Shown: positions 32,375 through 43,494 of the stretch, piece after piece | Layout: each line of letters begins with the position of its first letter | Numbering within the stretch: the stretch's first letter is position 1 | Assembly: GCA_002049545.1 (NCBI GenBank) | Contig: LLYT01000012.1 | Location: forward strand, 1-44,188 | From: Deltaproteobacteria bacterium tcs-42 | GTDB lineage: Bacteria > Desulfobacterota > Desulfuromonadia > Desulfuromonadales > Geopsychrobacteraceae | Direction: 5' to 3' | DNA: 44,188 nt | Position numbers and translations under genes: made by a program | Notes under the pieces: model-generated | Seen by the model: only the letters and a program-made list of their open reading frames with translations | Told to the model about the DNA's origin: nothing | The model's database searches: none

Positions 32375-32782
32375 TCAAAAGCGGATCTTTTGCGTTGCAT
32401 TATCAAAGTGGTGAAAATCGATTTGATCCGGCACACCAGAGTAATCATCTTCTCCCAGTTTCTGTGCCGAATGGTAAAACCAGCGCTCGTCAGATTCAAT
32501 CAACAAAGCGAGCTCGAAAAAAAACTGTGGTCCCGTTTCGGTGGCCAATTCCATCAACAGGAGCACCTCGACTTGCCCCTTATCAACAACCCGCTGTCGC
32601 AGGCATCGCCAGCTTTTTATCGCAACAGAGCGCAACTGTTGCTGGGCAAAATGGAGATAGGTATCACAATCACCAAACTGTTGCAAAAATGGTGCATCAT
32701 TATGATAGCTGTCATAAACAGCCACATAGTCACCACTCTTTAAAGCAGAAAAGCGATTGTCCAAAAACTGTTGAACTGTCAT
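32375..32782 (-). CDS. YchJ/SnoaL-like small protein
   Basis: This 135-residue protein resembles the NTF2-like middle domain of YchJ (UPF0225) proteins: 'FLDNRFSALKSGDYVAVYDSYH' and a C-terminal strand 'FFELALLIESDERWFYHSAQKL'. The YchJ zinc-binding SEC-C motifs are absent. Function is unknown. Its ATG overlaps the dppC-like stop (ATGA), so it is co-translated with the transporter. A short inverted repeat (AGGCTT...AAGCCT) follows its stop at about 32335-32361. Confidence 0.55.
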   Translation of the reverse strand: MTVQQFLDNRFSALKSGDYVAVYDSYHNDAPFLQQFGDCDTYLHFAQQQLRSVAIKSWRCLRQRVVDKGQVEVLLLMELATETGPQFFFELALLIESDERWFYHSAQKLGEDDYSGVPDQIDFHHFDNATQKIRF

Positions 32783-33633
32783 TCTTTGAGCCTGGGATCG
32801 AGAGCATCACGAATCCCCTCGCCGAGAAGGTTGTAGCCCAGAACTGTGATCAAGATTGCCAGGCCGGGGAAAACCGATAGCCACCAGGCACTGCCAAGGG
32901 TCTGTTTCCCGATAATCAACATGTTCCCCCAGGAAGGGGTCGGCGGTTGAACCCCGATACCGAGAAACGACAGGGCACTTTCGGTCAAAATAGCCCCAGC
33001 GACACCAAGGGTCGCAGAGACAAGAACCGGTGATATGGCATTGGGGAGAATATGACGAAAGATCAGGCGCAGATCGGAAGCTCCCAGTGCCTGTGCAGCA
33101 AGGACAAAATCACGCTGTCGCAAACTGAGGAACTCGGCGCGGATCAATCGAGCCACCCCCATCCAGCTGGTCAATCCAATCACAATCATAATATTCCAGA
33201 TCGATGGATCAAGAAACGCAATCACCGCCAGAATGAGAAAAAACGTCGGGAAACAAAGCATAATGTCAACAAAACGCATCACCAGTGCATCAATCCAACC
33301 ACCGTAATATCCAGCCAGAGAACCGAGGATGATACCGAGTAAGGTTGAAATTCCGACCGCAACAAATCCAACCAGCAATGAAATTCGTGCACCATAGAGC
33401 ATCCGGACAAACACCTCACGCCCCAGATCATCAGTACCAAAGGGGTGCGCTATACTTGGTGGCAAAAGACTTTGACTGATATCAATAGCAGCGGGGTCTG
33501 AATGAGTTAACGAAGCAACTGCAGCCATCAGGAACATAAGGGCAACAATCCCGGCACCGACCAGAGCCATACGGTTCTGACGTAACTGTCGCCAGACCAC
33601 ATCAAAAAGAAAAGTACCCCGAGATCGTGACAT
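32779..33633 (-). CDS. Peptide ABC transporter permease, DppC/OppC type
   Basis: The 284-residue membrane protein has an N-terminal helix, five more helices, and the EAA loop 'LRQRDFVLAAQALGASDLRLIFRHILPN' that couples to the ATPase. The N-terminal 'HPFGTDDLGREVFVRMLYGARISL' is typical of DppC/OppC. It should pair with the DppB-like permease 660 bases upstream, from which it is separated by the MshEN-domain gene. No DppD/DppF ATPase gene lies in the window. Confidence 0.9.
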   Translation of the reverse strand: MSRSRGTFLFDVVWRQLRQNRMALVGAGIVALMFLMAAVASLTHSDPAAIDISQSLLPPSIAHPFGTDDLGREVFVRMLYGARISLLVGFVAVGISTLLGIILGSLAGYYGGWIDALVMRFVDIMLCFPTFFLILAVIAFLDPSIWNIMIVIGLTSWMGVARLIRAEFLSLRQRDFVLAAQALGASDLRLIFRHILPNAISPVLVSATLGVAGAILTESALSFLGIGVQPPTPSWGNMLIIGKQTLGSAWWLSVFPGLAILITVLGYNLLGEGIRDALDPRLKE

Positions 33634-33635
33634 AA

Positions 33636-34259
33636 TCAGTTAAACTTTACCCTTTCAATATCAAGGACACTCAATACACCCTTTTCTTTTAAAAGATCGA
33701 GCAAGCGGTCGAGACGGGGATCGTGGGGAGAGATATCGGCAAGATCAACCATTCCATGCTCAACAATACTTTTTTTAACTTCATCTTCGGCCGGTTCAGG
33801 TGGCTTTGGCATCTCTTTGGGGACATTATTCTTAATGGCCTGACAGATTTCATCTTCAACCGCCAGCACCGGAATGATCTTACACCCGGTTGCAAACTGC
33901 AGATCATCGATTAACTTGAGGTTGGTCGGATCGGTCATCGCGACACGCAAGATTTTTTCGTGACCGGTTTTACGTAATTCAATCGGAATCACCGCCAATT
34001 CCAACATCCGTTCAGCAGATAACAACGCCATGAGTTGCTCAGAAACCTCAAGCTCCTGTAAAGAAACCCGGGAGTACTTGACCTGCGTTTCTAAAAACTC
34101 GAGAATCGTCTCCTCAGGGAGATAACCCAGCTTAACCAGAGCTTTGCCAATCTGCCCCCCCAGGTTCCGTTGCATAGAGAGGGCTGATTCAAGTTGGAAC
34201 TGATCAATCAATCCGGCTTCCAACAACATTTCCCCTAAACGGTTTGTATTAATTTGCAT
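33636..34259 (-). CDS. Stand-alone MshEN-domain protein (predicted c-di-GMP receptor)
   Basis: From the ATG at 34259 (AGGGGG upstream) it is 207 residues with no ATPase domain. Residues 6-29 read RLGEMLLEAGLIDQFQLES... through ALSMQ and match RLGxxLx10LxxxLxxQ, the c-di-GMP-binding repeat of MshE-type GspE/PilB N-terminal domains. After exactly five residues comes a second repeat, QIGKALVKLGYLPEETILEF...TQ. The rest to about 120 ('VIPIELRKT', 'VAMTDPTNLKLIDDLQFATG') is the usual T2SSE_N fold. The tail (130-207) has a proline/acidic linker and a short helical segment. It lies between the two permease genes and may tie the transporter to c-di-GMP; this is inference. Confidence 0.8.
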   Translation of the reverse strand: MQINTNRLGEMLLEAGLIDQFQLESALSMQRNLGGQIGKALVKLGYLPEETILEFLETQVKYSRVSLQELEVSEQLMALLSAERMLELAVIPIELRKTGHEKILRVAMTDPTNLKLIDDLQFATGCKIIPVLAVEDEICQAIKNNVPKEMPKPPEPAEDEVKKSIVEHGMVDLADISPHDPRLDRLLDLLKEKGVLSVLDIERVKFN

Positions 34260-34289: not shown

Positions 34290-35285
34290 TCATGATGAAC
34301 CTCCCCCCTGTTGACTGTGCCGGATACGCGGATCGGCCAGGGCATAACAGATATCTGCCAACAGGTTTCCGAGCAGAGTCAACACCGCACCCATCACCAG
34401 AATCCCCATAATCAGGGGATAGTCCCGCATCATAACACCATCGTAAAAAAGTTTCCCCATCCCGGGAATGGCAAAAATTGTTTCAAAGATCACACTACCG
34501 CCAATGAGACCCGGGACCGAAAGCCCGAGAATAGTGATCACCGGCAACAATGCATTGCGTAGAGCGTGATGATAAATAACCGTTCGCTCCGACAGCCCCT
34601 TAGCTCGAGCTGTCAGGATATAATCCTGGCGGATAACTTCGAGCATATTGGAACGCATATAGCGTGAAAACCCTGCCAGCCCGCCAATTGCAGACACAAA
34701 TACCGGCAAAACCAGATGGCTGATCCGGTCAAGCAGTTGCCCCCCCCAGCTCAAATATTCATAGCCGAGGGACTTTAAGCCAGACACCGGTAGTAGCCCC
34801 AGGCGAACACCAAACCAATCCATCAACAGCAGTGCCAACCAGAACGAAGGCATAGCAAAACCGGTAAAAACCAGCACCGTGGTGGTTCGATCAAAACCCG
34901 AGTTGCGGTGAATGGCTGAAAGAATCCCCAGTGGCACCGATACAGCAAGAATCAGGAGAATCGAAAGTAGATTGAGTAAAATTGTCACCGGCAAACGTTC
35001 CAGAACCTTGTCCAGAACGGGTCGGCGATCGGTGGCAAAGGACTCCCCAAAATCGAGCCGCACCAGGCGTGACAACCATTGTCCATATTGAACATAGAGC
35101 GGCTGATCAAGCCCATACTGAGAACGCAATCGTCCCTGCAGCTCAGAACTGGCCTGCGGATTAAGCTGAGTTTGCATATCGGTCGGCTCTCCCGGTGCTA
35201 AATGGATCACGACGAACGAAATCAATGTGATCCCCAGAAGCAGGGGGACAAGCAACAACAGACGTTTAGCAATATAACTCAACAC
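34290..35285 (-). CDS. Peptide ABC transporter permease, DppB/OppB type
   Basis: A 331-residue permease beginning '[23 protein letters not shown]', with 'HLAPGEPTD', six membrane helices and the EAA loop '[27 protein letters not shown]'. I place the start at GTG 35285, with AGGTAG six bases upstream and five bases after the binding-protein stop. The track's start would overlap that gene by 40 bases. It forms the translocation pore with the DppC-like protein. Confidence 0.9.
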
Positions 35286-35290
35286 AAAAA

Positions 35291-36949
35291 CTACCTGGAA
35301 TATTTCTGTTCCACCTGCGGCACAAACCACTGGTTGAAATTATAGCGGATTCCGGCAGGAGCCGCCTCTACATTACGAAAACGCTTGGAAACAGCCGGTA
35401 AGGCCTCGCCAACATAGAGGAATGTATACGGCTGCTCCTCAGCCAGTATTTCCTGAAAACGATCATAATAGATCTTACGCTGTGGCAGATCAAAAACCCG
35501 CCGCCCCTCTTCCAGCAAACGGTCAACCTCAGCATTTTTAAACCCGATAAAATTAAGCTCACGAGGCCCGGTCTTGCTGGAATGCCAGATATTATACTGA
35601 TCCGGTTCCGGTCCACCCGTCCAACCGAGGATCGTTGCATCGAAATTTCCCGGATTTATAAACTCCTTGAGAAATGTCGCCCACTCAATAATCCGCAGTT
35701 TCACCGCGACCCCAACCTCCTTGAAACGGCGCTGGATAATTTCACCCGTCTTGGCACGCAGATCGTTCCCCTGGTTGGTGACGATCGTGAAAGCCAGCTC
35801 TTTGCCATCTTTATCCAGAATGCCATTCCCATCGGTATCCTGCCAGCCGGCCTGCGCAAAAAGCTCGCGCGCCTTCGCAGGATCGTACGAATACTTTGGC
35901 ACGGCACCATTATAGACCCAGGTATCGGGTTTGTACGGACCCGTTGCGACACTACCATAGCCCAACAGAACTCCATCAATAAGTTCCTGCTTGTTGATGG
36001 CATAGGAAAGTGCCTGCCTGATCCGTTTATCCTGGAAGAGGGGGCGATTCAAATTATAGCCAAGGTAAGTATAACCAAAGTTCAGATAACGGTACTTATT
36101 ATACAACCGCTTAAACGCGGGCGTATCGGTTTGCCGATCAAACTGCAATGGCGAAAGTCCCATAAAGTCAAGACTTCCGGTCTGCAACTCAAGAAACTGT
36201 GTAGAAATATCGGGAATAATCCGATACACAACCCGCTTGATGTAAGGCTGCCCTTCAAAATAGTCGGGATTCGACTCAAGGACAATTTTTTCACCCCCAA
36301 CCCATTCAATAAACCGGTATGGACCTGTTCCCACCGGTTTGCGCGCCAGTTGGCTTTTGGTGATATCGGTCCCCTGCAAAAGGTGTTTCGGATGAATCGG
36401 TGTTGCCCAGCTGATTAAAGCCGGGGCATATGGCTGATCATAGTGGACAACAAAAGTATGTGGGTCGGGTGCTTCAACACCGGTGACCTGTTTGAACGAT
36501 TCAGCATAAGCTGTCGGAGTTTGCGGATCGATATAGAGCTGATAGTTAAACTCGACATCTGCCGAAGTCAACGGTGTACCATCGTGCCACGTGACCCCTT
36601 CGCGCAGGTGAAAAGTGAGGGTCAGGTTATCCTCAGAAATCTCCCAACTTTCAGCCAGTTCACCTTCAATCTGCAGATTTTTGTCGTAACGGACCAGACC
36701 ACTATAGATCAGGCCATTGATCGAACTGGACGCAGAATCCGACGCCAATACTGGCAACAGAGTGCTGGCATCGCCAATCGACGCCTCAATAAAAGTATCG
36801 CCAAATTCAGGGACCAGCGCCTCGGCAACTCCCGGATGATTCACCTCATCAGAGTCAGTGCAGGCACCAAGAAACAATAACATCACGCCGACAAACAGGA
36901 GATCAAATAGATATTTTTTTCTCATCAGAAGCCCCGATATTTTCTTCAT
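35291..36949 (-). CDS. Peptide-binding lipoprotein, DppA/OppA type (SBP_bac_5)
   Basis: The 552-residue solute-binding protein has a lipoprotein signal with lipobox LGAC near residue 30, then the family-5 pattern: '[29 protein letters not shown]', '[26 protein letters not shown]', '[11 protein letters not shown]' and '[20 protein letters not shown]'. It captures peptides or similar solutes in the periplasm for the permeases downstream. Its ATG overlaps the stop of the preceding lipoprotein gene (ATGA). Confidence 0.9.
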
Positions 36950-39994: not shown

Positions 39995-40246
39995 ATGAAA
40001 GAGCCTCAAGGAAATTACATCAGAGAAGCCTGGATCCTTTGTCTGATTCTGGGCTTGATCATGATCAACTTTCCCTTCATCCATATATTCAATACTAAAC
40101 AGTTGCTGTTCGGTATGCCGAAACTTGTTCTCTACTTCTTTATCGGCTGGCCGGTATCGATAGCCGTTATCTGGCTTTTTGTCCGGTACATCGAAAGGGA
40201 CTCGCAAGATGGCTCTACATCACTGCAAGACAAGGGCGACCCATGA
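39995..40246 (+). CDS. Small two-TM protein upstream of the symporter-sensor (CbrX-like)
   Basis: An 83-residue membrane protein with helices at about 11-31 (WILCLILGLIMINFPFIHIF) and 43-64 (LVLYFFIGWPVSIAVIWLFV), separated by a short loop. It has a good AGAGG ribosome site and overlaps the next gene by four bases (ATGA). Pseudomonas cbrA is likewise preceded by a small overlapping gene, cbrX, which couples its translation; this may be the counterpart, or a small subunit of the transporter. No sequence match could be run. Confidence 0.65.
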   Translation: MKEPQGNYIREAWILCLILGLIMINFPFIHIFNTKQLLFGMPKLVLYFFIGWPVSIAVIWLFVRYIERDSQDGSTSLQDKGDP

Positions 40247-43200
40247 TTTCAGCAAAATCGGTCCTGTTCATGTCGGTGATCTCCCCTACAACGGTTCTGC
40301 TTGTCTCACTTGGCTATTTGGCGCTGTTGTTTCTGATCGCCTCCTATGCGGAAAAGTGTCGCAAAACCGACAATTGCCTTCTGAAAAACGCAAATGTTTA
40401 TGCATTGTCGCTAGCAGTCTATTGCACCAGCTGGACATTTTACGGCAGCGTTGGCAAAGCCGCCTCCAACGGCCTGGAATTTCTCCCGATCTATTTAGGA
40501 CCAACCCTGATTGCTTTTGCCTGGTGGTTTCTGCTGCGCAAGATGGTCCTCATCAGTAAGCAGCAAAATATTACCAGCATTGCCGATTTTCTTTCCAGTC
40601 GCTACGATCGCTCCACGCTTCTTGGTGCTATTGTCACACTGTTTGCCGTCTTCGGCATTACCCCCTATATCGCCCTACAGTTGAAAGCCATTGCCCAGAC
40701 ATTGGCTATTCTGTCGATGCCGGTAACAGCTCCCGATACAGGTTTATACGATTTCACAGCCAAACTTCCGGGAAGCATTGATATCGCATTTTTTGTTGCC
40801 ATGCTGTTGGCTCTGTTTGGCGTGCTATTTGGTGCCAGAAGCCTGGACGCATCAGAAAAACATGAGGGACTGGTCGTCGCAGTTGCCTTTGAATCTCTGG
40901 TTAAATTGATCGCTTTTCTTGCCGTCGGTATTTTTGTTACCTATGGTCTGTTTGATGGTTTTATCGATGTTTTCCAGCGCTTTTATGAACAATTTCCAGA
41001 ACGTCGCGACCTGCTCCTGCTTGGCACTGAACGGACCCCCTACACCAAATGGTTTACACTTATTATTCTGTCGATGACGGCTGTCATGTTTCTGCCCCGA
41101 CAGTTCCACATCATGATCACAGAAAATATCGATGAACAGCATATCAAATCTGCCATGTGGAAATTTCCAGCTTACCTTTTCCTGATCAATCTGTTTGTTC
41201 TGCCAATCGCCCTTGGAGGTTTGATCATCAATGGTGGTGACACGACACAGGCCGATTATTTTGTCCTGACTCTGCCAATGTCTGCGGGACAGCCATGGTT
41301 AGCTCTGCTGGTCTTCATTGGTGGGCTGTCTGCCTCTGCCGGAATGGTCATGGTGTCTGCAGTCACGATAGCAACCATGATCCTGAACCAGTTGGTTATG
41401 CCGATCATTCTGAAACTGAATGTCAAAGCGCAAAATATCTCCGGGCTGCTGATCAGCATTAAACGCCTTGGTATTCTTGGTGTCATCTTTATTGGTTACT
41501 TCTATTTCAAAATCATTGGCAGTTCCTACGCTCTGGTCAACATGGGGCTGATATCTTTTGCTGCGGTGACTCAGTTTGCGCCAGCCGTAATTGGTGGGCT
41601 TTTCTGGAAAAGGGCGAATCGCAAAGCCGCCATATCGGGAATCAGCCTGGGTTTTGTCCTGTGGTTTTATACCCTCCTCATTCCATCATTTGTCCGCTCC
41701 GGCTGGCTCAGCTCAGAGATTCTACAAAATGGCCTCTATGGTATCAACCTGTTGAAACCCCTGGAGCTATTCGGCTTGCGTGGGTTTGATATGTACACCC
41801 ACTCTCTGTTCTGGAGTATGCTTTTCAATCTGGCAGCCTACCTGACGTTATCATTCTTTGCCAGACAGACAGAGTCGGAAGAGATGCAAGCCGAAAGATT
41901 TGTTGATATTTTTGTCGAGCAGCCGACACAACCAGCAAAGCTCAAGCGCATCAGCAAAGCACCAACCGTTATGGAATTTGTCGAATTAATGTCCAAATTC
42001 ATTGGTAAAAAACCGGCCCAAGCTGCTATAGCCGATTTTTTAGACAATCAGGAAATTGATGCCAAGGGTAATCTTTCCGATCATGAAATACCCAACCTGA
42101 AAAGCTTCACACAACGCACCCTGGCCGGTCACGTCGGTGCCGCTCCTGCGAAAATCATTCTCGAAAACTATCTGTCCGCTCGCGGTAGTCAGATGGAAGA
42201 TATCTTCGATATATTTGGCACAGTCACTATCAGTCATGCCTCCAGCCGCGAGCAATTGAGTGTCCTGTATGACACTGCACAAATTGTTTCCAGCGGAGGA
42301 GATTTTCAGAAAATCAGCGACAATATACTGGAACTGCTTGCGCAACAATTTAAATTTGACCTTTGTGTGATCCGCTTTCTCGAACCTGAATCGATGACAT
42401 TGATGGTCAAGAGTCTGGTTGGTTCAGCAACGGAACATCTAGGCCAGTTTGAGCGAAATCTCAATATGGATACCTACATCGGGCAGGCGTTCCTGTCTAA
42501 TGCCACTACAGTTGTCAATGATGTCGACTATATCGACAAGCCTCTTTCAGCACAACACATGAAGCGTGATGGGATCACCTGTCTGGCTCACACTCCAATC
42601 GTTTTTGAAGGGGACCCCATTGGAATTCTGTCGGCTTTTTCCAAAACCACAAAAGGGATCTTTACCAGGGAATTCATTGCCCTGTTTGAAAATTTGGCCG
42701 GGCAGGTCGGAATTGCGTGGCGCAACGATCAACAACTACAAAAACTTTTACGCGGTCGTGAACAGGAACGGGAGATGCAGATTGCCAGAGAGATTCAAAA
42801 AACTTTCCTCCCTGCAAACCTCCCCGATCAAGAAAATATCGCTATTGCCGGACTCTGTGTCTCTGCCCATCAAGTTGGCGGAGACTATTACGACATCATT
42901 GAACGCGATAATTCATCATACGACTTGATCATAGCCGATGTGTCAGGGCACAGTATTGGTTCAGCGCTGATCATGGCTGAAACACGCACTTTCATCCATG
43001 CCCGTATGGAAAGCATCAAACATCCGTCTGAAATGTTGCATGCTCTCAACGGCTATTTCCTTAAAGATCTGGATCGCTCCGATCAGTTTGTCACCATGTT
43101 TTACCTCCATTATAATTCACTCACTCATCGGCTGATTTATAGCAATGCCGGTCACAACACGCCGCTTCTCTGGAAAAGTCGGGAACGGAAAATCGTAACT

Positions 43201-43494
43201 CTGGATACCGAAGGGATGATTTTCGGGATCAAAAGCGATATTTCTTTTGAGCAGAAAGCGACAGACCTCGAACCAGGAGATATTCTCCTTCTGTACACAG
43301 ATGGAATTATCGAAGCTGAAAACAAAGACAAGGTCTTCTTTGGAATCGAAAGATTGGGAAAGCTGCTTGAAGAATGCGATGATTTGCACCCTCAAGAACT
43401 GATCGATCAGATTATGACCCAGGGACGAATGTTCACCGGAATGCGACATTTCAATGACGACATTACTCTCGTTGCCATGAAGGTTTTAAAATGA
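40243..43494 (+). CDS. SLC5 symporter-STAC-GAF-SpoIIE phosphatase fusion
   Basis: Residues 15-550 form a sodium:solute symporter with about 13 membrane helices; 'YCTSWTFYGSVGKAASNGLEFLPIYLGPTL' is the CbrA-type SLC5 N-terminus. Residues 585-660 match the STAC linker of transporter-coupled sensors ('FIGKKPAQAAIADFL', 'FTQRTLAGHVGAAPAKIILENYL'). A GAF domain follows (about 670-830), then a helix 'EQEREMQIAREIQKTFLP' and a SpoIIE-type PP2C phosphatase (about 850-1082). The phosphatase metal residues are all visible: VGGDYYD, IADVSGHSIGSAL, LLLYTDGIIEAEN, NDDITLVAMK. CbrA ends in a histidine kinase; here the output is a serine phosphatase. The likely target is the STAS protein encoded 184 bases downstream. 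The solute is unknown. Confidence 0.85.
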   Translation: MISAKSVLFMSVISPTTVLLVSLGYLALLFLIASYAEKCRKTDNCLLKNANVYALSLAVYCTSWTFYGSVGKAASNGLEFLPIYLGPTLIAFAWWFLLRKMVLISKQQNITSIADFLSSRYDRSTLLGAIVTLFAVFGITPYIALQLKAIAQTLAILSMPVTAPDTGLYDFTAKLPGSIDIAFFVAMLLALFGVLFGARSLDASEKHEGLVVAVAFESLVKLIAFLAVGIFVTYGLFDGFIDVFQRFYEQFPERRDLLLLGTERTPYTKWFTLIILSMTAVMFLPRQFHIMITENIDEQHIKSAMWKFPAYLFLINLFVLPIALGGLIINGGDTTQADYFVLTLPMSAGQPWLALLVFIGGLSASAGMVMVSAVTIATMILNQLVMPIILKLNVKAQNISGLLISIKRLGILGVIFIGYFYFKIIGSSYALVNMGLISFAAVTQFAPAVIGGLFWKRANRKAAISGISLGFVLWFYTLLIPSFVRSGWLSSEILQNGLYGINLLKPLELFGLRGFDMYTHSLFWSMLFNLAAYLTLSFFARQTESEEMQAERFVDIFVEQPTQPAKLKRISKAPTVMEFVELMSKFIGKKPAQAAIADFLDNQEIDAKGNLSDHEIPNLKSFTQRTLAGHVGAAPAKIILENYLSARGSQMEDIFDIFGTVTISHASSREQLSVLYDTAQIVSSGGDFQKISDNILELLAQQFKFDLCVIRFLEPESMTLMVKSLVGSATEHLGQFERNLNMDTYIGQAFLSNATTVVNDVDYIDKPLSAQHMKRDGITCLAHTPIVFEGDPIGILSAFSKTTKGIFTREFIALFENLAGQVGIAWRNDQQLQKLLRGREQEREMQIAREIQKTFLPANLPDQENIAIAGLCVSAHQVGGDYYDIIERDNSSYDLIIADVSGHSIGSALIMAETRTFIHARMESIKHPSEMLHALNGYFLKDLDRSDQFVTMFYLHYNSLTHRLIYSNAGHNTPLLWKSRERKIVTLDTEGMIFGIKSDISFEQKATDLEPGDILLLYTDGIIEAENKDKVFFGIERLGKLLEECDDLHPQELIDQIMTQGRMFTGMRHFNDDITLVAMKVLK

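Follow-up and report, generated by a model that had tools for sequence, protein, structure and literature searches.

A stand-alone MshEN protein encoded between dppB- and dppC-type permease genes, a candidate c-di-GMP-sensing subunit of a peptide ABC importer

The MshEN domain, whose four-helix bundle binds c-di-GMP, is characterized by a 24-residue motif for which a consensus has been published, and the same work describes 3',3'-cGAMP as a further ligand that the domain can bind (Wang et al., 2016, PMC5013675). The C-terminal subdomain of PilF changes its orientation when the ligand binds, and the GSPII-B domain of the Thermus protein binds with an affinity of 6 nM despite having K and L at motif position 1 (PMC11731258), so this position tolerates change. 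Outside pili and secretion, MshEN is likewise found in NfrB (MshEN-glycosyltransferase), MshEN-REC and MshEN-GAF proteins, all of which are fusions. Among ABC importers, the OpuC osmolyte importer is controlled by c-di-AMP via CBS domains, a case of a cyclic dinucleotide acting directly on the importer. Here, we describe within the window (i.e., the whole stretch of 44,188 nucleotides that was analysed) a protein that shares with Vibrio cholerae MshE, PilB and Thermus PilF the two 24-residue motifs, the 5-residue spacer, the C-terminal subdomain and the key Leu/Gly/Gln residues, whereas it lacks the traffic-ATPase domain, bears a short conserved tail instead and is encoded with an ABC importer. 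Unlike NfrB and the other fusions, it stands alone in a transporter operon; its likeness to OpuC is an analogy of working only, since there the nucleotide and the domain are others, and the domain is fused to the ATPase, whereas the protein described here is separate.

The gene (33636..34259, minus strand), for which a preliminary description of this DNA had given exactly the same interval, starts with ATG at 34259, stops with TGA at 33638-33636, is preceded by a ribosome-binding site (AGGGGG) just 5' of it, and encodes 207 aa. The product matches the Pfam MshEN model (PF05157; E 4.9e-15, 55.7 bits against a cut-off of 23.1) and, with 60.3 bits (cut-off 38; E 1.1e-16), the NCBIfam c-di-GMP motif NF053729, while its PDB matches comprise PilF, PilB and c-di-GMP-bound MshE. 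MshEN was the sole domain found in the Pfam search, and the C-terminal Walker domain of the GspE/PilB/MshE traffic ATPases is missing, as had been proposed from the first inspection. A chance or spurious ORF was ruled out by the curated model scores and by conservation, and a truncated PilB by a tail unrelated to the ATPase and by a separate PilB-type match in the genome. With neither a signal peptide nor a membrane helix detected by eye, the protein is presumably cytosolic.

Motif I (residues 7-30; 34170..34241, minus strand; RLGEMLLEAGLIDQFQLESALSMQ) matches every named position of the published consensus (PMC5013675), and is followed, after a spacer of exactly five residues (RNLGG), by motif II (residues 36-59; 34083..34154, minus strand; QIGKALVKLGYLPEETILEFLETQ), a near match; the two repeats initially reported are thus present as 24 + 5 + 24 residues with the conserved Arg/Leu/Gly/Leu/Leu/Gln. 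Departures in motif II (Q for R at position 1, I for L at 2, Y at 11, and I for L at 17) are mostly conservative, and at position 1 R predominates among the orthologs. According to the Pfam alignment range and conservation, the MshEN C-terminal subdomain extends over residues 62-144 (33828..34076, minus strand) and includes a conserved Asp110 (of AMTDP). Residues 146-207 comprise a linker, which is variable, and a tail (residues 179-205; 33645..33725, minus strand; DPRLDRLLDLLKEKGVLSVLDIERVKF), which is conserved, looks helical and has a pattern, L..L...L..KG.ls..e, that recurs phylum-wide. By analogy with described MshEN domains, 3',3'-cGAMP is another conceivable ligand.

On the same strand, domain matches identify a dppA-type lipoprotein solute-binding protein (SBP_bac_5; 35291..36949) and two BPD_transp_1 permeases, of dppB type (34290..35330) and dppC type (32779..33633), between which the MshEN gene is placed, as previously noted, with gaps of 30 nt on the dppB side and 2 nt on the dppC side, where dppC starts just past the MshEN stop. 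The listed dppB ORF overlaps dppA; since homologs begin near residue 16, its start is likely a GTG at about 35285. The peptide transporter operon of the preliminary description therefore holds for dppA-dppB-MshEN-dppC and not for the ATPases, as the dppD/dppF genes (oligo_HPY), expected of Dpp/Opp importers, are absent from the window and found elsewhere in the genome. The substrate, judged from the family, would be di-/oligopeptides. Compared with usual Dpp/Opp importers, this gene set contains an additional second-messenger-receptor gene, with a presumably cytosolic product. Farther along the window (40243-43494, plus strand), a 1083-aa protein combines a many-helix, symporter-like N-terminal half with GAF and SpoIIE phosphatase domains, and a protein of similar length occurs near the same locus in a relative (L157, 12677-15889).

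The genome containing the window (2.55 Mb, 121 contigs) has 19 GGDEF and 7 EAL matches, and c-di-GMP is thus probably made and degraded in this organism. Three other MshEN-like matches were detected, assigned by eye as MshEN-GAF-like, MshEN-REC and a 565-aa PilB-type protein. Three Dpp-type permease sets are also present, of which only the window's is accompanied by MshEN. A dppD-dppF pair standing alone, without neighbouring permease genes (contig C57, L121:7049-9033), probably supplies the ATPases of the window's DppABC; in other families, the DppD/F encoded beside MshEN are nearest to this pair.

The preliminary description had made its proposal dependent on gene order being conserved in related genomes, and conservation was found from the family (dppB-MshEN-dppC) through the order (MshEN-dppC) to nine further families in other classes of the phylum, well beyond the range named in that description. 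An ortholog at E <= 1e-40 was detected in 36/44 same-family genomes, including Desulfuromusa and Geopsychrobacter metagenome assemblies, and dppB and dppC flank MshEN in every same-family locus read, wherever the contig reaches; two genomes of this family (G001, G038) keep dppB-dppC and miss the MshEN gene. Across the order, where the MshEN tree follows the families, MshEN lies directly upstream of dppC in 46 of the 50 tree rows. In G133 and three loci of f3, the MshEN gene does not adjoin dpp. The f3 loci L073, L074 and L085 (G055, G049 and G048, respectively; L085 stops at a contig end) group on a long branch as sister to the dpp-linked MshEN and lack an adjoining dppC. Since fpg and a 135-aa ORF, for which a link to the transporter is not plausible, are likewise kept after dppC in the order, synteny at this level alone is weak evidence and partly inertia.

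A profile of the order's MshEN proteins was run over the phylum (395 genomes), and outside the class all short-frame matches listed were read, setting aside PilB pieces or contig-end fragments by tail sequence and position (L204, L207, L208, L209). Outside the class, dpp genes adjoin a stand-alone MshEN gene at 25/27 loci (23 genomes, 9 families); these are not independent events, the loci being picked by query similarity and related by descent, and the two others (L181, L187) both belong to f65. By our estimate, about 1% of random genes would be expected to adjoin a dpp cluster. The differing arrangements are a stronger argument than the count of 25/27, and include dppA-dppB-MshEN-dppC-dppD-dppF (L186, L193), dppB-MshEN-dppC-dppD-dppF (L188, L195), dppA-dppB-MshEN-dppC (L179, L192, L206), MshEN-dppD-dppF (L182, L183, L184, L190, L194, L196, L197, L199), MshEN pairs before dppD (L180, L191) or dppC (L185), and five consecutive MshEN genes of unequal motif quality between dppB and dppC (G326, L203:2072-6366). 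The MshEN stop and dppC start overlap by 4 nt in L179, L186, L192 and L203, and Pfam confirms the dpp neighbours in L186 and L203. DppB/DppC of the three genomes compared (G447, G359, G326) have 61-68% identity to the window's, against about 30-38% to the two other Dpp systems of the window's genome, and are orthologs of the window's, the linked permease of f65 being more distant (45%). The phylum tree is compatible with one or with several origins. On the other hand, Geobacterales have the transporter but not MshEN, as do most of the other phylum genomes inspected, and, among the best 30 of the dppC orthologs common in the phylum, MshEN adjoined 7; hence, MshEN is an optional module of the Dpp importer and is not required for transport.

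An unlikely reading, albeit one with some weight, is that the protein is a c-di-GMP binder with a target other than the transporter, working in surface polysaccharide, the outer membrane or pili and placed in this operon for expression only. MshEN elsewhere serves pili, type II secretion and the NfrB glycosyltransferase, and in several families of the order a gene of this kind is located just upstream of it, either galE or ugd (f3, f17, f18) or an OmpA or TSP3-repeat outer-membrane gene (f3, f9, f14, f15, f19, f20), with dppB occupying that place in f1, f8, part of f17 and one f9; moreover, G133 has MshEN with OmpA, a phosphomannomutase-like gene and galE, and no dppC there. However, the tie with dppC outlasts these changes of upstream gene, and OmpA adjoins dppC also in genomes without MshEN (G101, G135, G044), which suggests that a single permissive site received these genes in separate insertions. 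Outside the order, polysaccharide or OmpA genes were not seen to recur, and a surface-polysaccharide cassette, suggested by the galE/ugd/OmpA neighbours, was rejected as the primary reading, given that at phylum level only the dpp link recurs, and kept as a rival. The dppB/dppC junction is itself occupied by different genes depending on the family (galE, ugd, OmpA, apgM-like). MshEN stays with dppC even where the two permease genes are far apart, dppB being 18 kb from MshEN-dppC in G105 and about 800 kb away in G059; in G105 (L146, L158), an 18-kb sugar-nucleotide/polysaccharide cluster separates dppB from OmpA-MshEN-dppC.

It is rather improbable that the role of the protein is structural, in the docking or assembly of the permease-ATPase complex, with a fold borrowed from MshEN and ligand binding secondary or lost in some lineages. 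In favour of this reading, MshEN/GspE N-domains are docking modules, the tail is conserved, lineage-specific tandem copies occur, and motifs are weakened in some linked copies, such as those of f38, in which the final Gln of motif II is replaced by His, and those of some f1 genera, with Met/Leu at position 1. Nevertheless, the ligand-contact positions are the best conserved of the MshEN domain: the mean top-residue frequency in the order and phylum sequences was 0.83 at the 12 published contact positions and 0.56 elsewhere in the motif region (permutation p about 1e-4), while the C-terminal subdomain averaged 0.53, the tail 0.40 and the linker 0.17. In addition, the relaxed full two-motif pattern is retained in 82/111 aligned linked copies (39/44, 26/35 and 17/32). 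Finally, a gene order due to historical inertia, with no functional link, is very improbable: vertical inheritance explains much of the conservation within the order, where fpg and the 135-aa ORF persist as well, but inertia predicts neither duplication in place nor that, once the operon is split, MshEN accompanies dppC in certain clades and dppDF in different ones.

In this context, we lean towards the protein being a c-di-GMP-sensing accessory subunit of a DppABCDF-type peptide ABC importer, as judged from sequence and gene order. A functional tie between receptor and peptide transport is supported by MshEN lying beside Dpp genes, despite differing arrangements, from family to phylum. The c-di-GMP control of peptide uptake initially suggested is thus supported in part, and better than at its proposal, in that this conserved adjacency points to the tie, while control itself is a prediction and in many relatives the transporter lacks MshEN. 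In the proposed mechanism, the 53-residue four-helix bundle would bind c-di-GMP with sub-micromolar affinity, as in other MshEN domains, and the C-terminal subdomain and tail would attach to the transporter from the cytosolic side, at DppC loops or at the DppD/DppF ATPases (in the source genome, the lone pair on contig C57), on the model of the MshEN of PilB/GspE, which is seated at a machinery of the inner membrane. Movement of the subdomains relative to each other, driven by the ligand, could then raise or lower transport.

The open-licence papers searched describe no MshEN-dpp link. We give an even chance to the broader proposal that a peptide importer with a dedicated c-di-GMP-receptor subunit exists in several classes of this phylum, in which the messenger would gate uptake directly at the protein level. 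Most known c-di-GMP outputs concern motility, pili, secretion, polysaccharides and transcription, to which direct control of nutrient import would be added if this proposal is true, and stand-alone MshEN proteins would gain a concrete and readily testable target. In brief, our data suggest that peptide uptake may be tied to the attach-or-swim signal in these bacteria, which are important in electrode biofilms and in the cycling of metals and sulfur.
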